DNA of 57,235 nucleotides. Source: Leptolyngbya sp. BC1307 (lineage in GTDB: Bacteria > Cyanobacteriota > Cyanobacteriia > Phormidesmidales > Phormidesmidaceae). The stretch spans positions 1 through 57,235 of the forward strand of contig NZ_NRTA01000026.1 of the NCBI RefSeq assembly GCF_002286735.1, written 5' to 3'. The translations under genes and the position numbers were made by a program. Of the stretch, positions 12,215-50,982 are shown piece after piece (positions within the stretch are counted from its first letter, which is position 1; every line of letters begins with the position of its first letter). The notes below the pieces were generated by a model. The model did no database searches. It had not been told where the DNA came from and was given only the letters and a program-made list of their open reading frames with translations.

Positions 12215-12242
12215 GTTGTATTGAGCGCGTTGTATTGAGCGC
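12215..12242. repeat. Perfect 14-bp tandem duplication
   Basis: GTTGTATTGAGCGC occurs twice head to tail with no mismatch in the gghA-ggpS gap. Confidence 0.9.
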
Positions 12243-19458: not shown

Positions 19459-19480
19459 GAAGATCTCCTGAAGATCTCCT
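19459..19480. repeat. Perfect 11-bp tandem duplication
   Basis: GAAGATCTCCT occurs twice head to tail between the DUF1830 and DUF4079 genes. Confidence 0.9.
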
Positions 19481-20628: not shown

Positions 20629-21369
20629 GTGACCATCTTAAAGTTTGAGCAGGTAACGATGAGGGCAGCAGCTGGCCCGGTCGAAATTCTCAAAGATCTC
20701 AGTTTTGCCGTTGAGCCGGGTGATTTTGTGGCGCTGGTTGGGCCTTCGGGATCGGGCAAAACCAGTCTGCTACGGTTGATCAACCGGCTTTCTGAAGTCA
20801 GCCGAGGCACCATCTGGTTTGCCGGTCAAGATATTCAGCAGCTGCCGGTGGTCAGTTTGCGGCGTCAGATTGCTTTGGTTAACCAGGAGAGCCGACTGCT
20901 GGGCATGAATGTTAAGACGGCTCTGGGCTATCCGCTCCGGCTACAGGGTCGCCCGACTGCGGAGATCGCAGCAGCCGTGAATCAGTGGGCTGAGCGGCTG
21001 AATATTCCAGCGGACTGGATGGATCGCACGGCGGTAAATCTATCATTGGGGCAACGGCAGCGAGTAGCGATCGCCCGCGCCCTGCTTAGCGAACCCAAAA
21101 TCTTACTGCTAGACGAACCGACTTCTTCTCAAGATGTGGGCTACAGCGAGTTTTTGCTCGCTCGTCTGGCTGACTGGGCGACTCAGGGCAAGCTCACTAT
21201 CATTATGGCCAACCATCAGATCGATCTGGCCGCTCGCTATGTCAACCGGCTGTGGCACCTCAACGACGGCAGGCTGATCGCTGATCTACCGGCTGACGCG
21301 GTAGATTGGGGCCAACTGCGCCAATCACTGGTAGCAGCCGAGCAGCAGGCTCAAGCTGACTGGTCTTAG
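20629..21369 (+). CDS. ABC transporter ATP-binding protein, YbbL/FetA-like
   Basis: A 246-residue stand-alone ABC ATPase. Walker A is GPSGSGKT at residues 38-45. The signature is LSLGQRQRVAIARAL (SLGQ rather than SGGQ), Walker B is ILLLDEPTS and the switch His follows in IIMANHQIDLA. The sequence is closest in style to YbbL/FetA-type ATPases that pair with a YbbM/FetB permease, but no such permease is present next to it. The start is GTG with AGGAGA about ten bases upstream. The stop codon TAG at 21367-21369 ends the first of three 15-bp tandem repeats. The preceding small membrane protein may be a partner; this is inference. Confidence 0.85.
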   Translation: MTILKFEQVTMRAAAGPVEILKDLSFAVEPGDFVALVGPSGSGKTSLLRLINRLSEVSRGTIWFAGQDIQQLPVVSLRRQIALVNQESRLLGMNVKTALGYPLRLQGRPTAEIAAAVNQWAERLNIPADWMDRTAVNLSLGQRQRVAIARALLSEPKILLLDEPTSSQDVGYSEFLLARLADWATQGKLTIIMANHQIDLAARYVNRLWHLNDGRLIADLPADAVDWGQLRQSLVAAEQQAQADWS

Positions 21370-21399
21370 GCTGACTGGTCTCAGACTGACTGGTCTTAG
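21355..21399. repeat. 15-bp unit in three tandem copies over the stop codon
   Basis: GCTGACTGGTCTTAG, GCTGACTGGTCTCAG and ACTGACTGGTCTTAG follow each other without gap. The first unit contains the last four sense codons and the stop of the ABC ATPase gene, and the third again carries an in-frame TAG. The array stops one base before the response regulator gene, which is convergent. Confidence 0.92.
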
Positions 21400-21400
21400 G

Positions 21401-22150
21401 CTAGGCGGGTTTGCTGTGGGCGATCGCCATCGCCTCTATTGATCTATCCAGCGGCCCAACACAAATGCGGTAGCCCACGTTTCTCACCGTCTGAATCAGA
21501 TCAGGATGACGCGGGTTAATCTCTATTTTTTTGCGCAGCGACAGCACATGCGTGTCCACCGTACGCGGATTGTCAATGGCATCCGGCCAGGCACGGCGCA
21601 GCAGATCGATCCGGCTGAGCGGCTCACCTTCGGCCTGAGTTAAAACATATAGCAAGCTAAATTCTTGGGGCGTCAGATCGACGAATTCACCCATATAGCG
21701 CACCCGACGCTGCACCAAATCAATGTGCAGATCGCCGCAGTCAATCGCCAGAGGCGTCGTAATATGGCGACTGCGACGAGTCAGCGACTCCACTCGCGCC
21801 AAAAACTCCTGCATGCCAAACGGCTTTTTGAGATAGTCGTCGGCCCCGGATCTTAGTCCGGCCACCACATCGGGTTCGGTCGTACGGGCAGACAGCATTA
21901 AAACCAGCGGGTGGCCCTGATGGCTGAGCCACTGGCACAGCTGTAGCCCCTGCCCCCCGGCAAACTCTGCCTCTAACACGACGAGGCTAGGCTGCTGCAT
22001 CTGGAAAACGTCTCTCGCCGCCACCATATCAGCACACTGCTGCACTTTATAACCAACCTGCTGCAAGTTCCAACTCAGCAGGGAGCGCAAGTTTAAATTG
22101 CTTTCAACAACTTGGACATTGATATCAATAGAGGCGCTCACAGAATACAT
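21401..22150 (-). CDS. OmpR/PhoB-family response regulator with Glu at the phospho-site
   Basis: About 249 residues: receiver domain (residues 11-125) and winged-helix DNA-binding domain (about 140-240, with LTPQEFSLLYVL and VDTHVLSLRKKIEINP). The receiver is non-canonical. The usual acidic pair is Glu16-Ser17 (VQVVESN), and the phospho-acceptor Asp is replaced by Glu60 (SLVVLEAEF). The conserved Ser (VLMLSAR) and Lys (DDYLKKPF) remain. It may be active without phosphorylation, or regulated otherwise, as in other atypical cyanobacterial regulators. ATG at 22150 fits the domain start; an upstream in-frame ATG at 22258 would add 36 residues of unrelated composition. No histidine kinase is adjacent. 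Confidence 0.88.
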   Translation of the reverse strand: MYSVSASIDINVQVVESNLNLRSLLSWNLQQVGYKVQQCADMVAARDVFQMQQPSLVVLEAEFAGGQGLQLCQWLSHQGHPLVLMLSARTTEPDVVAGLRSGADDYLKKPFGMQEFLARVESLTRRSRHITTPLAIDCGDLHIDLVQRRVRYMGEFVDLTPQEFSLLYVLTQAEGEPLSRIDLLRRAWPDAIDNPRTVDTHVLSLRKKIEINPRHPDLIQTVRNVGYRICVGPLDRSIEAMAIAHSKPA

Positions 22151-22569
22151 AGCGCAATAAATGCTGCTGCTGACAGATCTTAATGAGCAAAAGCCTAACA
22201 GAGCCCCTGTGCGACTTCTGTAATCGAGGTTACGGGACACGATCATCCGATAAAACATACTCTGATTGAGTTCGTAAGTCGGCTTAGCCCTGTTTGACCT
22301 GATAAAATAGAGTCAGAGCGCTGAATGATTCGAGCAAGCTTGATAGGTCAACAGTAACCGATCCAATCCCTATATGCGTTGACTTAACGAGTTGATTTTA
22401 CTAGCTTAAAACTGGGGGATCGGGAAGGGTTCAGCCAGGGCTCGGCGGCTACCCATCGAGGTTGAGAGCCGCTTAAGACCGGGTCTTTTAGCGCACGTAC
22501 AAAAGTTCACATACGTTCCGACAGACATTCGATACAGATCAGTTTCAGTTAAATGAGGCTCGCAGACAA
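22151..22569. other. Gene-free divergent gap
   Basis: About 420 bases between the response regulator and the DUF6761 gene, which diverge. The frame upstream of the chosen regulator start is open to 22258 but has no strong ribosome binding site. No convincing promoter, hairpin or small gene was recognised. Confidence 0.5.
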
Positions 22570-22818
22570 ATGCTTCAAGACGTTCGCATTATTCGCTATT
22601 ATCAGCGAATGACTGACACCCTCATAGATTATTGGCATAAGGGCTATCGTACCGACGAGCTCAGGCTATACATTGAGGGATATATTACTTCCATGCGCCA
22701 CTCTGGTGCCGCAGAGTCCTATTTAGTCAATAAGTTAGAACAAGAAGTTTTGCGGTTTTTACACGATTCTTCTAATTTCGCAGTGACTCAAACAGAGGTA
22801 GAAACTGACTACTATTAG
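22570..22818 (+). CDS. DUF6761 family protein
   Basis: An 82-residue, mostly helical protein that matches the small cyanobacterial DUF6761 family in length and pattern: an N-terminal RYYQRMTDTLIDYWHKGY, a middle LRLYIEGYITSMRHS and a hydrophobic LVNKLEQEVLRFL. There is no signal peptide or membrane span. The function is unknown. The gene stands alone on the plus strand with gaps of over 180 bases on each side. It begins with ATG at 22570. Family assignment is from memory of similar sequences; the gene itself is well supported by composition. Confidence 0.75.
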   Translation: MLQDVRIIRYYQRMTDTLIDYWHKGYRTDELRLYIEGYITSMRHSGAAESYLVNKLEQEVLRFLHDSSNFAVTQTEVETDYY

Positions 22819-23008
22819 GCGACCACCTCAGCAAAGTGAAGGTTCAAAGCGAATAGGGTTAAAACTGAATAAGTAGGCGCTTTGCAAAGAGCCATTGAGA
22901 ATCTGACTATTCACAGTAAAAAAGCGCGCTGGCACAGTCAGAAAACTGGCTAACACGCTTAGTGATGAATGACGCTAGCAGTATCAACGCTGACGGTGCT
23001 TAGTACGA

Positions 23009-23332
23009 TTAGGAAGCGATCGCTACCTCTACCGTCTCTTGCAGGTTACCTTCCTGATACATCTTGATTAAGATATCTGAGCCGCCAAGAAACTCACCAT
23101 TGATATAGACCTGAGGAATGGTGGGCCAGCTAGAGTACTCTTTGATACCCTGGCGAATTTCAGAATCGGCTAGAACATCTACGGTTTCGTAAGGGACACC
23201 TAGCATGTTCAAAATTTGGACGACATTGTTAGAAAAGCCGCACTGAGGCATAAGCTTGGTGCCTTTCATAAACACCATAATCTTGTTCTGCTCAATGAGG
23301 TTGTCGAGTTTAGCTTTAGTTTCTGGAGACAT
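23009..23332 (-). CDS. grxD: Monothiol glutaredoxin, Grx4/GrxD type
   Basis: A 107-residue monothiol glutaredoxin with the CGFS active site at residues 31-34, the [18 protein letters not shown] glutathione-binding region and conserved Lys in [12 protein letters not shown] glutaredoxins bind a glutathione-ligated [2Fe-2S] cluster and hand it to BolA proteins and other targets. The ATG at 23332 is preferred because AGGAT lies eight bases upstream and the family begins here; a further ATG at 23386 would add an 18-residue extension. The gene follows bolA on the same strand at 62 bases, the classic Grx-BolA pairing, which supports joint iron-sulfur trafficking or iron sensing. Confidence 0.95.
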
Positions 23333-23394
23333 TGCGATAATCCTGAAAAATGATGACCTTGTAAGTTTAGCGAGCTTAGCTAGCATTGATGCAG

Positions 23395-23646
23395 CTAGCT
23401 AGCAGCCGCGACTTCACCCGGTGTATGGGTCTCTAAAGAAAGCGCATGAATGGCCTCAGAAGTCATGGCTGCCGCCACTGACTGATAGACCAGCTGATGG
23501 CGCTTGACCAGGCTCAGCCCTTCAAAGGCAGAAGATATGATGGCTACCTGGTAGTGATCACCGCCGCCTGTAAGATCTTGAACCGCGACTTCAGCGTCGG
23601 GCAGGCTAGTGGTGATCATAGATTTTACTTGGTCGGGGCTGATCAT
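23395..23646 (-). CDS. bolA: BolA family protein
   Basis: An 83-residue BolA/IbaG-type protein. Family features are [29 protein letters not shown] and the conserved [11 protein letters not shown] at the end. BolA proteins bind a shared [2Fe-2S] cluster together with CGFS glutaredoxins; the His in HALSLET and the upstream variable loop usually provide ligands. The ATG at 23646 has AAGGAG five bases upstream and is clearly better than the in-frame TTG at 23667. It is the first gene of a two-gene unit with grxD. The upstream region holds a 9-bp inverted repeat (CTTCGATAG at 23737, CTATCGAAG at 23780). Confidence 0.93.
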
Positions 23647-23806
23647 ACGCTCCTTCTGTAAAGTCAATTGTCTTACCCATTATGGCGCAATTTTCCCATT
23701 AACTGACAGCTGATTGCCTCAGCCAGCGGTGTCAGCCTTCGATAGTAATTTTATTTTTTGTTCATCTAAGTCAAAGTATCTATCGAAGAGCCTTAGCGCT
23801 TAGCGG

Positions 23807-24403
23807 CTACTGACCCGGCGCGTTGTATGGGACGGCGACAAAGCCCAGTTCATAGAGCTGCTGGTAAGCCTGCTGACCTAGCGGGCGAGTGGGCTGCTGG
23901 CTATTGACGACTTCGACTAAGAGCGGCACGGCCAGATCGGGGCGGCTCTGGGCACGATAGACTACGGCTAGCTGATAGCTGGCCTGGTCACGCACCTCAG
24001 CAGACTCTCGCGCTAGGTCTCGTAAACCGCTGTTGACGCGGCTGTCTACACCGACAAATACGCCAGAGAGATTTTGGTAGTAGGTGGAAACGTCGTTAAG
24101 GGCCTTGCGAGCGGCGACCAGCTTTTCGGCGGCCAGGGTGTAGTTTTGCTGAGTGATCGCACTTTCAGCCTCGCTCATCAGCGACTGGCCAGCAGCGATG
24201 CCAATCAGACTAGACGATTGTTCTATGGCGCGGGTAGCAGCTGGAGCCTGGGCCGGGGGCTGAGTCTCGGCGGGCGGAGTGTCTCCAAGCTGGGCCTGAG
24301 CCACGAAGGGAACGGCGATCGCACCGACTATCGTACTGGCAACAGCGACGATGGCCGCTTTGGGTAACGCGCCAGACAGCAAAGCTCTAACAGTGGAAAC
24401 CAT
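23807..24403 (-). CDS. Exported hypothetical protein with helical repeats
   Basis: A protein of about 198 residues with an N-terminal signal-like segment (LPKAAIVAVASTIVGAIAVPFVAQA) ending in an Ala-x-Ala-type cleavage site. A Pro/Ala/Gln-rich linker follows. The remainder is helical (QNYTLAAEKLVAARKALNDVSTYYQNL, DQASYQLAVVYRAQSRPDLAVPLLVEVV) and resembles TPR-like repeats. It probably acts in the periplasm or at a membrane, possibly as a scaffold; I do not recognise a named family. ATG at 24403 puts the signal at the N-terminus; an in-frame ATG at 24472 would add 23 residues. It is divergent from the subtilase gene at about 150 bases. Confidence 0.65.
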   Translation of the reverse strand: MVSTVRALLSGALPKAAIVAVASTIVGAIAVPFVAQAQLGDTPPAETQPPAQAPAATRAIEQSSSLIGIAAGQSLMSEAESAITQQNYTLAAEKLVAARKALNDVSTYYQNLSGVFVGVDSRVNSGLRDLARESAEVRDQASYQLAVVYRAQSRPDLAVPLLVEVVNSQQPTRPLGQQAYQQLYELGFVAVPYNAPGQ

Positions 24404-24554
24404 GATGTCAAAAACAGCTAACTTTAGGGAATCTAAACTAGAGTAGGGCATCGAGTCCGCCATTGTCGCCATCCGATGTGACTCTTAGCTAAGTGGATGT
24501 GCCTGGCACCGGGTCACTAAAGGATCAAACTGTCCGTAGTATTAGCTTTTAACT

Positions 24555-26684
24555 ATGACTTCATCGGGGCCTTCATCAGGTGGAGCGTCGGGTCGACCTT
24601 CTGGCGGTCAGGGCGTTTTGCCAGGCAAAGAAGGGGTGATTTTGCAGCGCGGCGGCGAAGAGCTACAGCTCTACAAGGTGAGAAATCGCCTGACCTTTTA
24701 CCTGAGCGACCCAGCAGATTTGTCTGAACTAGTGGCACAGGGGCAGCCGCAGCAAGTCAGAAATATCACCCCTCAGACGACAGACCAGGGGTCAGTTGTG
24801 ATCGAATGGCAATTGCCTACTCAGCGATTAGAAGCGGTGCTCGCAGAGTTAAGAGCGGCTCCCCCGGTGCTCTATGCCAGCCATGTGTATGAACTGGCCT
24901 TGAGCCCAGGCACCTATGTGTATCTAGCCAATCAGCTGACGGTGCAGTTTACCGACGCGCTGCCGGTGGCTCAGATCGAGGCGATCGCCCGCAGCATCGG
25001 CATCGTTCCGACTCGCGTGCTGGCAGGCAGCAGCAATACCTACTGCTTTAGGGTCGGCCCTACCGCCCAAGAAAATCCGCTGAAGCTGGCCAATCGGCTC
25101 GCTCGTAACCCTAACGTTTTGCTAGCTGAGCCGAATGTGATTATGGCGATCGCGCCGCTCTATCGCCCGAGCGATACCCGCTACCCTGAGCAGTGGCATC
25201 TTTTCCACCGGGGCGGGCCGGGGCTGGCGGCTGGCTCTCATGTCTCTGCCGAACTCGCCTGGGATATTACTCGCGGCAGTCGCTCAGTGACTATCGCCGT
25301 CACTGACGATGGCTTCGATCTAGCTCACCGCGATCTGCAGGGACCCGGTAAGATTGTCGCCCCCCGCGACCTCAAAAATAAAGATGGCTTACCGATTCCT
25401 CGCCACAATGAAAATCATGGGACAGCAGTAGCCGGTGTTGCTTTAGGAGAAGAAACCGGAGATGGCATTGTTGGCATCGCCCCCGGCTGCAGCCTAATGC
25501 CGCTTCGGACAACCGGCTTTTTAGATGACGACTCGATTGAGCAACTGTTCGATTGGGCCATTGAACAGGGCGCAGATGTAATCTCTTGCAGCTGGTCACC
25601 TGCCTCTGTTTATTTCTCGCTGTCTCGGCGGATTAGCCAGGCGGTCAACCGGGCTGCAACTCAGGGGCGCAACGGCAAAGGCTGCGTGGTGGTGTTTTCG
25701 GCGGGCAATGCCAATCGCCCGGTAGAGGGCAAAGTAGAGGAGTCGGGCTGGCCTCGCAATCTCATTAAGGGATTAACCAGCTGGCTCAGCGGCTTTGCGG
25801 TTCACCCAGATGTGATTACGGTCTCGGCCTGCACCAGTCTCAACCAGAAGGCGGCTTACAGCAATTGGGGTCGTCACATTTCGGTGGCCGCTCCGAGCAA
25901 CAATGCTGCCCCTAATATGGCGCTCTCTACCGGTACTTTTGACACAGGGCCGCCGATTCAAGTGCAGCTATTAGGGCGCTCTGTGCTGACGAGCGATCGC
26001 ACGGGCGACCAGGGCTACACGACTGACGACTTCACCGGCTTTGGCGGCACTTCTAGCGCCTGTCCGCTAGTGGCAGGCATCGCCGGTCTGATGCTTTCGG
26101 TCAATCCCGATCTAACAGCGGCTGAAGTTAAGCAGATTTTGCAGAGCACCACCGACAAAATTATCGACAAAGCTCCCGATCCGCAGCTGGGGCAGCGCTA
26201 CGGCACCTACGATAGCAACGGGCATTCGTTCTGGTTTGGCTATGGCAAGGTGAATGCCGCCGCCGCTGTGAAAGCAGCTCAGGCAAAAGCGCTGCGCGAT
26301 CGCACCCTCCACCAAACCCTCACTGTCCAGAATTCGACCGCTTTCCCTATTCCTGACGATGCCCCTAACGGCATTCGCAGCGCCCTCGATATTTCCACAG
26401 GCGGCAGCCTACAAGACATCAAAATATTCATTCAGGCCGAACACGAATTTCTTAGCGACCTCAGCTTTACGCTGATCACTCCCCAGAACCAGTCTGTATT
26501 GCTACAGGGTCGCACCCTGGGCCGCCAAACCCGGCTGCAAAGAACCTACTCGCTGGTGAACACGCCCGCACTGCGCCGACTGATCAATACAGAAGTGAAG
26601 GGCCGCTGGCAGCTACAGGTGATTGACCATGTTCCTGAGCATACCGGGCAGCTACAGCGATGGGACTTAATACTGGGCATCTGA
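24555..26684 (+). CDS. S8 subtilisin-like serine protease with C-terminal P-domain
   Basis: A 709-residue subtilase. The catalytic triad is Asp251 (AVTDDGFD), His288 (NHGTAVAG) and Ser500 (GTSSACPLVAG). Residues 1-200 form an extended N-terminal region that resembles the inhibitory or fervidolysin-type prodomain (VRNRLTFYLSD, ANQLTVQFTD). From about residue 600, a proprotein-convertase P-domain follows (ALDISTGGSLQDIKIFIQAEH, LSFTLITPQNQSVLLQ, GRWQLQVIDH). No signal peptide is visible, since the N-terminus is Gly/Ser-rich and polar, so it may be cytosolic or leave by another route. The stop TGA is the end of a 13-bp unit that is duplicated just downstream. Substrates are unknown; calcium dependence is typical of the family. 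Confidence 0.9.
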   Translation: MTSSGPSSGGASGRPSGGQGVLPGKEGVILQRGGEELQLYKVRNRLTFYLSDPADLSELVAQGQPQQVRNITPQTTDQGSVVIEWQLPTQRLEAVLAELRAAPPVLYASHVYELALSPGTYVYLANQLTVQFTDALPVAQIEAIARSIGIVPTRVLAGSSNTYCFRVGPTAQENPLKLANRLARNPNVLLAEPNVIMAIAPLYRPSDTRYPEQWHLFHRGGPGLAAGSHVSAELAWDITRGSRSVTIAVTDDGFDLAHRDLQGPGKIVAPRDLKNKDGLPIPRHNENHGTAVAGVALGEETGDGIVGIAPGCSLMPLRTTGFLDDDSIEQLFDWAIEQGADVISCSWSPASVYFSLSRRISQAVNRAATQGRNGKGCVVVFSAGNANRPVEGKVEESGWPRNLIKGLTSWLSGFAVHPDVITVSACTSLNQKAAYSNWGRHISVAAPSNNAAPNMALSTGTFDTGPPIQVQLLGRSVLTSDRTGDQGYTTDDFTGFGGTSSACPLVAGIAGLMLSVNPDLTAAEVKQILQSTTDKIIDKAPDPQLGQRYGTYDSNGHSFWFGYGKVNAAAAVKAAQAKALRDRTLHQTLTVQNSTAFPIPDDAPNGIRSALDISTGGSLQDIKIFIQAEHEFLSDLSFTLITPQNQSVLLQGRTLGRQTRLQRTYSLVNTPALRRLINTEVKGRWQLQVIDHVPEHTGQLQRWDLILGI

Positions 26685-26697
26685 ACTGGGCATCTGA
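26672..26697. repeat. Perfect 13-bp tandem duplication over the subtilase stop codon
   Basis: ACTGGGCATCTGA occurs twice head to tail. The first copy ends with the TGA stop of the protease gene at 26682-26684, and the second lies fully downstream. Confidence 0.95.
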
Positions 26698-26705
26698 CGA
26701 CCCGC

Positions 26706-27383
26706 CTACTCTGAAACGTCAGCTAGATTGGTCAGTGCAGCTTGCAAATCGGCGGTGAGCTGTTTAGAACGCAGTTTGCCTTCTCCGGCTTTGTATTCGG
26801 CCACGGAGATAGGCTTACCAATACGAACTGTCACCGTCCCTAGCCAGCGGGGGCACAGCTCGCTGTATTTCAGGCTAATCGGAACAATTTTGACATGTAG
26901 GTGAGGGCGGCTGCGCTCGGCGCGAAGGGCAATGCGGGCGAGTCCAGGTTTGAGTGGGTGGATGCGATCGCGGTAGATATTTCCCTCTGGGTAAATCACC
27001 ATCATCTCGCCTGCTTGCAAGAGCTGAACCCCGTGTCGCAGCGTCTGTACAGAAGGCTTGCGGACATGCACCGGAAAGCCACCGAGCCGCCTGATAAACC
27101 AGCCCTGAATGCCCAAACATTCATCAGCCGTCACCATAAACCGCAAATAGCGACCGGCCTGCTTACCAATCAACCCAACCAGCAGCGGGTCCCAACGAGA
27201 CTGATGCGTCGGCGCTAGCACGACCGGCCCGTCCTGAGGAATATTTTCCTGCCCCGTGATTTCAATCTGGCTAAAATAGGCAGGCAGAATGACTTTTTCA
27301 CCCAGCGTATACATGACCGGCGCGAGCCAGGGAGAAACGCGGGACTGCGCGGAGTGGCAAAGAGGGTCAGCAGGAAGCGTCAT
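26706..27383 (-). CDS. plsC: 1-acyl-sn-glycerol-3-phosphate acyltransferase (PlsC family)
   Basis: A 225-residue lysophosphatidic-acid acyltransferase family member that should add the second acyl chain in phosphatidate synthesis at the membrane. The HX4D catalytic motif is H60-QSRW-D65. The substrate motif appears as VIYPEGNIYRDR, and a later KIVPISLKY stretch matches the family. The ATG at 27383 gives the normal length; the open frame continues upstream to 27587 with little resemblance to the family, and that portion would delay the first motif. It lies in a minus-strand run with tadA. One hydrophobic N-terminal segment may anchor it. Paralogous acyltransferases exist in cyanobacteria, so the acyl specificity cannot be read. 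Confidence 0.88.
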   Translation of the reverse strand: MTLPADPLCHSAQSRVSPWLAPVMYTLGEKVILPAYFSQIEITGQENIPQDGPVVLAPTHQSRWDPLLVGLIGKQAGRYLRFMVTADECLGIQGWFIRRLGGFPVHVRKPSVQTLRHGVQLLQAGEMMVIYPEGNIYRDRIHPLKPGLARIALRAERSRPHLHVKIVPISLKYSELCPRWLGTVTVRIGKPISVAEYKAGEGKLRSKQLTADLQAALTNLADVSE

Positions 27384-27615
27384 GTCACCAGAAAAATTTA
27401 TCAGCATGGCTGAAAGAGAGACGCCCCCAAAAAAAGCGCTAGCAAAGAATGTACCAATTGATACACATCCGTCAATAATTGACCTAGCATAGTCGGCTGC
27501 CGGCTGTCGCTTGATGCGCAAGCTGACAGTTTCGACTCTGGCTTGCCGCGACAGCAACATTTCAGATAGCTTGCAGGCGCTCCTCACCTTAACAGGCGTA
27601 TCCGCATCGAACCTG

Positions 27616-41264: not shown

Positions 41265-42197
41265 ATGCGCGGTGTGTATATAGTAGCCAACGATAAGGTG
41301 GGGGAAAATGCGATCGCCCTGGTTAGCAGCCTGCGCCTTCACGAGCCCGAGCTGCCTATTTTTTTGATCCCCTTCAACGAGGACTATCACACCGTCGCCA
41401 GTCGCTTGGCAGAGCTGTATCAGGTTCAGCTTTTTCCCGACTTAGACTTTTTAAGGTCGCTCACGCAAAAGATTGGCGAGATTTTTCCGCGTGACTTTTT
41501 GGCGCTGCCCAATAAGATGCGCAAGCTGGCAGCCTGGTTTGGGCCGCTGGATGAGTTTCTCTATATCGACACTGATATTCTTTTTTTCACGCCCGTCTCC
41601 GATACGCTAGCCTATCTGGATCAGGCTGATTTCATCTGGTGCGACTACCACTTTAAAGGAGGACTGGTAGATGTCTTTTCTGATGTCGTCCCTGAGCAAA
41701 ATTTGTTTAGCCCCGAAGCCTTACAAGACGTATTTAATAGCGGTCTCTGGGGGTCTAAGAAAAGCAGCCTCACCCTCGATCAGCTCTATGACTTGCTAGC
41801 AGAATGCGCCGCCCATCGCGAGTATTTTGATTTTTCTAACGGCACGACCGACCAGCCGATTATGAATTTTTTGGTGCTTAAGGCGATCCCCAACCGGCTC
41901 AACATCGTTAAAGCCAATCCGGGTGAACCGGGTAGCTGGGGGGGCTCATCTCACTTTGAGCAGCGAGACTATGTGCTTTTTGATGGCGATCGCCCCCTAC
42001 GCTATCTGCATTGGGCCGGTACGCCCATGCGGGCAGGGGGCCCCTACCGCAGCCTGTGGGAGCACTACCGGTATCTCAATGATCCGACTGGCAAGGCGCA
42101 GGCCACCGCTGCTCAGCCCGCTCAACCCTCAGTGCTACAGCAGATGAAGGCCCAGATAAAATCGCGGCTCAGGTCACTGCTGAAAAGCGCTCACTAG
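41265..42197 (+). CDS. Glycosyltransferase, Npun_R2821/Npun_R2823-like (GT8-type)
   Basis: A 310-residue GT-A-fold protein matching the family annotated in cyanobacteria as Npun_R2821/Npun_R2823. The opening MRGVYIVANDKVGENAIALVSSLR and the metal-binding DxD in EFLYIDTDILFFTPV (near residue 98) are clear. FNSGLWGSKKS and YLHWAGTPM occur further on. It probably transfers a sugar to a glycan or glycolipid in the cytoplasm. A Lys/Arg-rich C-terminal tail (QMKAQIKSRLRSLLKSAH) may bind membrane. It lies 72 bases after the ABC exporter on the same strand, suggesting that both act in one glycan-assembly pathway. Confidence 0.85.
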   Translation: MRGVYIVANDKVGENAIALVSSLRLHEPELPIFLIPFNEDYHTVASRLAELYQVQLFPDLDFLRSLTQKIGEIFPRDFLALPNKMRKLAAWFGPLDEFLYIDTDILFFTPVSDTLAYLDQADFIWCDYHFKGGLVDVFSDVVPEQNLFSPEALQDVFNSGLWGSKKSSLTLDQLYDLLAECAAHREYFDFSNGTTDQPIMNFLVLKAIPNRLNIVKANPGEPGSWGGSSHFEQRDYVLFDGDRPLRYLHWAGTPMRAGGPYRSLWEHYRYLNDPTGKAQATAAQPAQPSVLQQMKAQIKSRLRSLLKSAH

Positions 42198-42226: not shown

Positions 42227-42256
42227 TAAAAACGAGACAGCTAAAAACGAGACAGC
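42227..42256. repeat. Perfect 15-bp tandem duplication
   Basis: TAAAAACGAGACAGC occurs twice head to tail between the glycosyltransferase and the amidase gene, which converge. Confidence 0.95.
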
Positions 42257-45988: not shown

Positions 45989-46627
45989 ATGTTAAACACT
46001 CATCAAATTCTGGGTCATGATTCTGTTTTTACGCCTGAGCAGGTATTGGAAAACCGGGGCCGTATTGCCATTTTTATAGACGGATCAAATCTGTTTTACG
46101 CTGCCCTACAGCTGGGTATTGAGATTGACTATACTAAGCTACTGAGCCGTTTAACTGCCGGTTCGCGGTTGTTTCGGGCCTTTTTCTATACTGGCGTAGA
46201 TCGTACCAACGAAAAGCAGCAGGGGTTTCTGCTTTGGATGCGTCGAAACGGCTACCGGGTGGTCGCTAAAGACCTGGTACAGCTACCGGACGGCTCGAAG
46301 AAGGCCAACCTGGATGTAGAAGTTGCCGTAGATATGATGGCTCTGGTGGACTCTTATGACACGGCAGTCTTAGTCAGTGGCGATGGCGATCTGGCTTATG
46401 CAGTTGATGCTGCTAGCTATCAAGGGGTTCGTATCGAGGTCGTTAGCCTGCGCTCAATGACTAGCGATAGCCTGATCAATGTTTCTGATCGCTATATTGA
46501 TTTGGATGGGATTAAAGACGATATTCGCAAGGGCGCTCGGGGCAGTAATCCTACTGCTCAGCACAACTATACCTATCGTCCCCTTTCTAGCATAGCGGTG
46601 TTGGACGAGGCCGAGTCTCATCCTTAG
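45989..46627 (+). CDS. LabA-like NYN domain protein
   Basis: A 212-residue NYN/PIN-like nuclease-fold protein of the LabA/DUF88 family. The acidic active-site residues are visible in RIAIFIDGSNLFYAAL (near residue 27), KKANLDVEVAVDMMAL (near residue 109) and VLVSGDGDLAYAVDAA (near residue 128). In Synechococcus elongatus, LabA dampens kaiBC expression within the circadian output; whether this paralogue does so is unknown. NYN proteins may process RNA. ATG at 45989. The 3' end is followed at three bases by a 14-bp tandem duplication. It is on the plus strand with lptC downstream at about 116 bases. Confidence 0.88.
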   Translation: MLNTHQILGHDSVFTPEQVLENRGRIAIFIDGSNLFYAALQLGIEIDYTKLLSRLTAGSRLFRAFFYTGVDRTNEKQQGFLLWMRRNGYRVVAKDLVQLPDGSKKANLDVEVAVDMMALVDSYDTAVLVSGDGDLAYAVDAASYQGVRIEVVSLRSMTSDSLINVSDRYIDLDGIKDDIRKGARGSNPTAQHNYTYRPLSSIAVLDEAESHP

Positions 46628-46630
46628 GCT

Positions 46631-46658
46631 GGCCCCTACTAGATGGCCCCTACTAGAT
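46631..46658. repeat. Perfect 14-bp tandem duplication
   Basis: GGCCCCTACTAGAT occurs twice head to tail three bases after the LabA-like stop; the copies bring an extra in-frame TAG. Confidence 0.93.
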
Positions 46659-46743
46659 GGCTTCGTCAGGGCTGCATCGCTTGAGACAAACTGTCATCAG
46701 CTAGCTAATCAACTGGCTAATTAAAAAGGGGGATTGAGAAGCG

Positions 46744-50635: not shown

Positions 50636-50982
50636 CGCTTTACTCGTCTACACAGCTTCAATTGCACAGTCCTTTTGCGGGTGCCTCACGCCTGACAGCG
50701 CTAGCCAGATGCCCTCTTCAGCAGCAGTCTGTGCACTACAACCACAGTATTTAATCACACTTTCAAACGGTCATTCCTTAAGGTGTGCTGAAAGGTGTGC
50801 TGATGGGGCCTGATAAATCGTGGAGATTCATACGGATGAGCCTTGCCAAAACACACCATAGGAAGGACTGCTTTCAGTTTTGAAAGTGTCACAATTTGAC
50901 CAGAATGATCCGTTGAGCTAACTAAGCTGAGGTAGGGAGCATTTCACTAAGCACTTGCAACTAATCGTCTCTAAATTAAACT
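50636..50982. other. Divergent gap with inverted repeat and tandem duplication
   Basis: No gene was found. ACACTTTCAAA (50757-50767) and TTTGAAAGTGT (50879-50889) form a perfect 11-bp inverted pair 111 bases apart. Between them lies the 12-bp tandem duplication AAGGTGTGCTGA x2 (50780-50803). The pair could be a two-site operator for the divergent DUF4330 and M48 genes. Confidence 0.5.
50780..50803. repeat. Perfect 12-bp tandem duplication
   Basis: AAGGTGTGCTGA occurs twice head to tail in the gap before the M48 protease. Confidence 0.9.

Follow-up and report, generated by a model that had tools for sequence, protein, structure and literature searches.

The 57,235-nt contig NZ_NRTA01000026.1 of Leptolyngbya sp. 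BC1307, hereafter the window, contains two genes that end within short tandem repeats, an ABC transporter ATPase gene with 15-bp units and a subtilase gene with 13-bp units. These stop-spanning repeats are ordinary mutation seen through selection, and the genome has in addition a real local excess of arrays at stop codons. Short tandem duplications are a common mutation under purifying selection, filtered by tolerance at the protein level. Behind them lies a length-limited duplication process with, in one cyanobacterial group, a sharp edge mark, a cytosine four nucleotides outside the array edge, designated C(−4); this process is best explained by topoisomerase I. Taken as a whole, this two-layer explanation, selective tolerance combined with topoisomerase I nicking, seems to us moderately probable.

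Two Genes End within Tandem Repeats

The ABC transporter ATPase gene (20629–21369, forward strand) was recognized from its open reading frame (ORF), its PF00005 ABC_tran domain (E = 2.2e-33), and its orthologues. Its TAG stop codon (21367–21369) constitutes the last bases of the first unit of a 15-bp tandem array of 3.2 copies (21355–21402), made of 21355–21369, 21370–21384, 21385–21399, and a partial copy at 21400–21402. The subtilase gene (24555–26684, forward strand) encodes an S8 peptidase with a P-domain (PF00082 Peptidase_S8, E = 3e-44; PF01483 P_proprotein, E = 5.6e-13). Its TGA stop codon (26682–26684) likewise forms the last bases of the first unit of a perfect 13-bp tandem duplication (26672–26697, units 26672–26684 and 26685–26697), whose register is unique and whose 26-base sequence occurs once in the genome. 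An earlier note had described the ATPase gene as ending inside the first of three 15-bp repeats and the subtilase gene as ending with the first of two identical 13-bp repeats. Both sets of coordinates are correct, the ABC repeats being near-perfect, with one base different from copy 1 in each of copies 2 and 3. The note further stated that both units end exactly at the stop codon. This stands for the subtilase gene; the ABC array extends to 21402, which leaves its register open by up to 3 bp and makes an end exactly at the stop one of four readings.

Orthologues of both genes were found by protein searches of 38 genomes. All six ABC orthologues of the same genus stop at the matching codon, except that L034 runs on by one codon, and none has the repeat after its stop. 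The repeat is also absent from the four same-genus subtilase orthologues with a readable end; a fifth one (L007) is cut before its end and was left out. This comparison with sister strains, suggested in the earlier note, shows that the repeats are derived. Both are new in this lineage, the first copy representing the old gene end and the copies past the stop the addition. In one same-genus relative (L033), different tandem copies are visible by eye shortly after the stop of the same ABC gene, and such events therefore recur. Of the six same-genus genomes, G002 alone has no close orthologue of the subtilase gene (best E = 1.1e-8); its ABC gene is present.

Tandem Arrays Are Frequent and Filtered by Selection on Genes

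We sampled 1.257 Mb of the 4.92-Mb genome (26%), including the window, together with stretches of five other cyanobacterial genomes and, as a control, five stretches of Escherichia coli K-12 (250 kb). Genes were called by our own script. On one E. coli stretch, it found 42 of 46 annotated stops, one very short and one cut gene being excluded, and its 43 calls included 42 correct ones. Considering near-perfect tandem arrays with units of 9–22 bp, the window holds sixteen, and the two that span stop codons belong to this crowd. About 160 arrays with units of at least 11 bp lie outside genes in the sampled quarter of the genome. The intergenic expectation was obtained from resampled intergenic sequence of the same genome, with five resamplings for perfect arrays. 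For near-perfect intergenic arrays of at least 11 bp, the class of the ABC array, 143 were observed versus a resampled mean of 5.0, and perfect arrays of 11–20 bp averaged 0.0 over the five resamplings.

The distribution of arrays follows the genes. In the first 857 kb, genes contain 0.111 arrays/kb, with periods divisible by three in 67 of 73; outside genes, the density is 0.557/kb and such periods are found in 38 of 111. The later 400 kb gave 0.131/kb with 35 of 41 periods multiples of three in genes, and 0.377/kb with 10 of 33 outside them. Within a gene, any duplication of a length not divisible by three would shift the reading frame, and a duplication over the start codon would be harmful. 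Conversely, a unit including or passing the stop would leave the gene untouched up to and including this codon, and selection on the protein would be blind to it. A unit that ends exactly at the stop would occupy the innermost tolerated position. Overlap with stop codons thus very probably reflects tolerance, that is, the geometry of selection. The pattern amounts to a simple rule, by which tandem duplication can add sequence to the 3′ ends of genes and hardly to their 5′ ends.

Array density also differs among the other samples. Genome G001 (stretches L172–L181) has the highest, with 1.55 arrays/kb outside genes. In plasmid stretches (L187–L192), we counted 13 arrays outside genes in 200 kb for Gloeothece and one in 100 kb for Acaryochloris. 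Given so few plasmid arrays, the process may be confined to certain lineages.

An Excess of Arrays at Stop Codons without Exact Phase

An overlap was counted where the first copy of an array reaches the stop, and the next 45 bp downstream served as a control. At 957 stops of the window's genome, there are 35 overlaps, corresponding to 33 arrays, two of which lie on two convergent stops each. The density of overlaps is 3.28/kb of possible positions, versus 1.12/kb just downstream, a 2.94-fold excess (P = 1e-5). It reaches 3.16-fold in the first sample without the window (P = 1.7e-4) and 2.84-fold in the later 400-kb sample (P = 0.018). In gaps of at most 300 bp, inner copies ending 0–15 bp outside the gene number 33 in 9,596 bp at stops and 1 in 8,716 bp at starts. 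The earlier note had called for a genome-wide count of repeats relative to stop codons, envisaging that gene ends might show no enrichment. On the sample analyzed here, gene ends are enriched, 2.77-fold when each of the 33 arrays is counted once (P = 3.9e-5), and one-sidedly at stops; the preference for an exact end did not materialize. Arrays ending exactly on the stop number 8 in this genome versus 8.67 expected, and 13 versus 11.78 over the six genomes, and we therefore reject exact phase as a rule. The stop falls with a mild tilt toward the unit end (5, 6, 7, 10, and 15 cases in successive fifths of the unit, 43 two-copy cases; Kolmogorov–Smirnov P = 0.088). At a rate of 35/957, about 1.6 overlaps are expected in the window, which has 44 called genes, so that two, which the earlier note found hard to attribute to chance, are ordinary here. 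In short, the enrichment at stops is real in this genome, the exactness is not, and there is no sign of a mechanism that recognizes stop codons.

Two explanations of the excess were discarded. Convergent genes are not its cause, as it is found at convergent and co-directional stops alike, both here (4.66-fold versus 2.63-fold, with two arrays counted twice in the convergent figure) and in the pooled data (2.21-fold versus 2.03-fold). Longer survival of stop-spanning arrays, one copy of which would be held by selection, found no support. In this test, pooled with E. coli and referred to arrays elsewhere outside genes, the perfect fraction was 11/45 versus 78/328 and mismatch rates were equal (23/415 versus 23/421).

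Unit Length and Microhomology

Tandem repeats have a standard origin in replication slippage, in which the polymerase falls back onto a short microhomology and copies a stretch twice; selection would then filter the products. This process would make short units the commonest and leave microhomology at the edges. In 285 kb of intergenic sequence, perfect repeats of 5 bp occur at expectation, and those of 6, 7, 8, and 9 bp exceed the resampled values (98 versus 70.4, 46 versus 17.2, 15 versus 4.4, and 10 versus 2.2), as slippage would have it. Beyond them, units of 10 bp are scarce (2), a separate hump extends from 11 to 17 bp with a mode at 14 bp (19 arrays), and two perfect arrays exceed 20 bp. 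Among 63 perfect arrays of 11–22 bp, the slack is 0 in 27 and 1 in 16 (43/63 together), where by our estimate random matching would give about 56% and 28%. Slack is thus close to random matching, and microhomology is not required. For units of at least 11 bp in this genome, neither edge microhomology nor a predominance of short units was found. Under slippage, moreover, no particular base is expected at a set distance beyond the edge, contrary to the mark described below. Arrays with more slack are found in G001 (above 0 in 18 of 22 perfect arrays) and G013 (10 of 10). G001 is also without the C(−4) mark, which looks as though a different process prevails in that genome. Overall, we regard slippage as an unlikely origin of the arrays.

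Two features of the units vary among genomes. Among perfect units longer than 8 bp, the mode lies at 14 bp in the window's genome, versus 11 bp in both G002 and G027, and a preference for TTAG/CTAA within units was seen in the window's genome only.

A Cytosine Four Nucleotides outside the Array Edges

Edges were analyzed in slack-0 arrays, for which they are known to the base, arrays of other slack values being excluded together with low-complexity arrays, arrays wholly inside called genes, and arrays near stretch ends. The 149 arrays retained have 298 outer edges, from the six genomes in which the mark was discovered and from 46 Leptolyngbya-like edges of a hold-out set. A cytosine is present at −4 at 129 of the 298, a frequency of 0.43 versus 0.23 in the background (P = 3.7e-15, a pooled value that includes the discovery data). 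At −7, −6, −5, −3, −2, and −1 of the same edges, its frequency stays at 0.20–0.29. Arrays marked at both outer edges number 31 among the 149, versus 7.2 expected at background. By source, the counts are 49/114 in this genome, 25/46 in G002, 15/32 in G027, 11/22 in G013 with G006, 8/38 in G001, and 21/46 in the hold-out part. Random duplications passed through the same detector gave 0.218 (440 detected of 1,452), and keeping one array per sequence cluster leaves 126 of 288 edges marked.

The test was fixed after the discovery and before the hold-out was examined. The hold-out consists of 80 loci of named cyanobacteria, from which arrays already present in the main sample were removed. C(−4) occurs at 27 of its 84 edges (P = 0.016), and at 21 of 46 edges in the Leptolyngbya-like part (P = 5e-4), a split that lies outside the pre-fixed test and follows a list first set down in the analysis script itself. 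This list comprises 46 of the 80 loci (23 of 42 arrays), namely the 40 heading the locus list and six chosen by title, and includes some other names, such as Microcoleus sp. FACHB-1515 and Trichocoleus sp. FACHB-40. A small extra hold-out, kept apart from the 84 edges as its regions may overlap with them, gave 8/16. The later sample of the window's genome alone (10 arrays) gave 0.35, units of 18–22 bp gave 4/16, and coding arrays show a weak excess (35/102, P = 0.055). In the slack-0 arrays of the window's genome, a G four bases inside the edge, G(+4), is equivalently a C at −4 from the unit end. An outer and an inner mark tend not to occur together at the same edge (18/31/33/32, P = 0.18).

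The bases around the mark bear on excision repair as its source. UvrC cuts 4 nt 3′ of UV-damaged pyrimidine pairs, and nicking of both strands by UvrABC, followed by fill-in and joining, could yield duplications at this distance in a light-exposed host. At (−5,−4), TC (2.97-fold over background) and CC (1.63-fold) agree with such damage. TT is the commonest photoproduct site, yet TT (0.84-fold) and CT (0.79-fold) are not enriched and AC (1.87-fold) is, while T at −4 lies below background (0.22 versus 0.28). The signal is that of C rather than of a dipyrimidine, so that an enzyme reading C fits better, and repair of pyrimidine dimers is a very improbable source. In composition, units have a GC content of 0.422 versus 0.464 in their flanks, and T is mildly favored at −5, −3, and −2.

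Head-to-tail noncoding copies without microhomology also resemble target-site duplications left by excised transposons. A transposase family makes target-site duplications of fixed length, and no fixed length was found here, unit lengths running continuously over 9–20 bp. Furthermore, no flanking element is shared: the 149 arrays fall into 144 sequence clusters and are therefore not copies of a dispersed element. We consider such footprints still more improbable than repair. Least probable of all is that selection favors the copies at stops, for instance in the role of back-up stops or 3′-end signals, since the 2.8- to 2.9-fold denser stop-spanning arrays of this genome are accompanied by an exact-end count at expectation, no significant excess in the other genomes, orthologues without the repeats, and a period divisible by three in only 17 of 53 overlaps, which does not look like selected in-frame back-up stop codons and led us to reject these.

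Topoisomerase I as the Candidate Maker of the Duplications

Known properties of type IA topoisomerases match the edge mark. According to the passages of PMC9352719 considered here, the cleavage core of E. coli TopoI is TCNTTA/T, with a conserved C lying 4 nt upstream of the cut, and other type IA enzymes had shown this C in earlier in vitro studies. A review, in the part considered, describes this C as required for bacterial type IA enzymes (PMC9960139). In the E. coli topA R168C mutant, de novo tandem duplications of 2–19 bp arise independently of repeats, according to an excerpt of PMC6954433, which states the origin of tandem repeats from unrepeated DNA to be unknown. The type IA topoisomerase domain (PF01131) has one match in the window's genome (E = 6.3e-121) and is present in 38 of 38 genomes.

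In the process that we propose, TopA would nick both strands at sites 11–17 bp apart, with a C 4 nt upstream of either nick, the paired nicks lying inside one small melted stretch. Synthesis from the free 3′ ends would run up to the opposite nick, so that each of the two resulting ends carries the unit, and their rejoining would leave two head-to-tail copies. The size of the bubble would set the upper length limit. In the part of PMC9352719 consulted, TopoI is reported to cut more inside weakly expressed units, particularly toward their ends, which could make gene ends hot. We infer the identity of the nicking enzyme, the order of the paired nicks, and the activity that rejoins the ends. Ku-dependent end joining was rejected for the latter, as Ku (PF02735) was found in none of the 38 genomes searched, the control being detected in Bacillus subtilis. 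A single nick with strand displacement predicts mutually exclusive edge marks, with an odds ratio that we estimate to be near 0.5. The observed value of 1.43 (31/29/38/51, P = 0.32) disfavors this variant without excluding it.

Several observations weigh against topoisomerase I. The main result of PMC9352719, as given in the part considered, is that TopoI cutting increases upstream of active units and decreases inside them, which by itself predicts an excess at starts and not at stops. The hotspots of topA R168C could not be matched to TopoI motifs, according to the excerpt of PMC6954433. E. coli K-12 has TopA, yet 250 kb contain 6 noncoding arrays and 2 in genes, and TopA alone is therefore insufficient. 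No TA was seen at the cut as in the E. coli motif, A at +1 having a frequency of 0.26. The inner G(+4), seen in this genome (51/114 edges) and not in the other genomes and the hold-out (48/184), is not predicted by the model. Units of 9–10 bp are also marked (19/46, P = 0.002), so that the mark is not confined to 11–17 bp.

The mark is also unevenly distributed. Hold-out loci outside the Leptolyngbya-like list have C(−4) at only 6 of 38 edges, the 8 perfect hold-out arrays at 4 of 16, and the Gloeothece plasmids at 1 of 10 (5 usable of 13 arrays), too few to judge and not supportive. G001, the genome densest in arrays, is without it. In arrays with a slack of 1–3, C(−4) is present in some register at 188 of 326 edges, versus 189 at −5 and 190 at −6, without a sharp peak. 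Of the two repeats that prompted the analysis, the subtilase array lacks C(−4)/G(+4) at both of its outer edges, and the ABC array is marked only in a shifted register, neither edge being marked in the register ending on the stop. With the register shifted by 1 bp, C(−4)/G(+4) is seen by eye at both outer edges of the three copies; in the mark counts, this array enters as its first two copies, with one edge marked. Finally, the pooled stop excess of the five other cyanobacteria is not significant (1.33-fold, 18 versus 41, P = 0.19), and as longer survival of stop-spanning arrays is unsupported, the 2.8-fold excess here is not fully explained.

Weighing these points, we give a slight preference to paired TopA nicks, fill-in, and rejoining as the makers of the duplications. 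More tentatively, and with the doubts somewhat outweighing the support, topoisomerase I might be a standing natural mutator in Leptolyngbya/Phormidesmis-like cyanobacteria, where fixed duplications of 11–17 bp keep the C(−4) mark and gene 3′ ends gain most. If true, it would provide the missing mechanism for the de novo repeats that topA drives in E. coli. Provided that the C(−4) mark does reflect topoisomerase I, a genome would be a readable record of where a single-strand topoisomerase has misfired.

Neighboring Genes and Other Arrays in the Window

Both stop-spanning arrays lie in short gaps between convergent genes. The ABC gene faces a called response-regulator gene (21401–22150, reverse strand; PF00072, PF00486), whose stop is 31 bp from its own. 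The subtilase gene faces an acyltransferase ORF (26706–27587, reverse strand; PF01553, E = 5.3e-24), with 21 bp between the two stops. Other arrays of the window include a perfect 12-bp noncoding duplication (50780–50803) marked at both edges. One edge is marked in a perfect 15-bp duplication (42227–42256) starting 30 bp past the stop of the ORF at 41265–42197, and in perfect noncoding duplications of 14 bp (12215–12242) and 11 bp (19459–19480). A 14-bp tandem array (46628–46661) directly follows the stop of an NYN-domain gene (45989–46627).

Comparison with Known Systems

Short tandemly repeated repetitive (STRR) sequences are heptanucleotide families in the intergenic DNA of filamentous cyanobacteria. 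The arrays described here share with them short tandem repetition in cyanobacterial intergenic DNA. They differ by their unit, which is 7 bp in STRR sequences and 13 and 15 bp in the two window repeats, and elsewhere a unique sequence of 11–17 bp, mostly in two copies. A 2016 report cited in PMC6954433 concerns plant genomes, and the citing passage states no link to topoisomerase. Among the papers listed by searches of one literature collection, none was found to describe a topoisomerase mark at tandem duplications of natural origin.

Fill-in duplications due to topoisomerase II in yeast and human tumors (PMC11477040, in the part considered) share with the proposed process staggered cuts, 3′ fill-in, joining, and a duplicated overhang. 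In that system, the units are of 2–4 nt, result from one type II cut, and depend on nonhomologous end joining. In contrast, the units found here are of 11–17 nt, the mark is type IA-like, and Ku was not found in the 38 genomes.

The arrays also resemble those of E. coli topA R168C (Bachar et al., PMC6954433, as far as its excerpt goes): the copies are head-to-tail, they are independent of existing repeats (less clearly so in G001 and G013), and a type IA topoisomerase is present. The lengths agree as well, with 2–19 bp in the mutant and mostly 11–17 bp here (mode 14), within that range, short units being hard to tell from chance in this comparison. R168C is a laboratory mutant for which, in the same excerpt, no cleavage motif was found and the mechanism was left open. 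Here, by contrast, the duplications are found in natural genomes, as many fixed events, with C(−4) at a large part of their edges.

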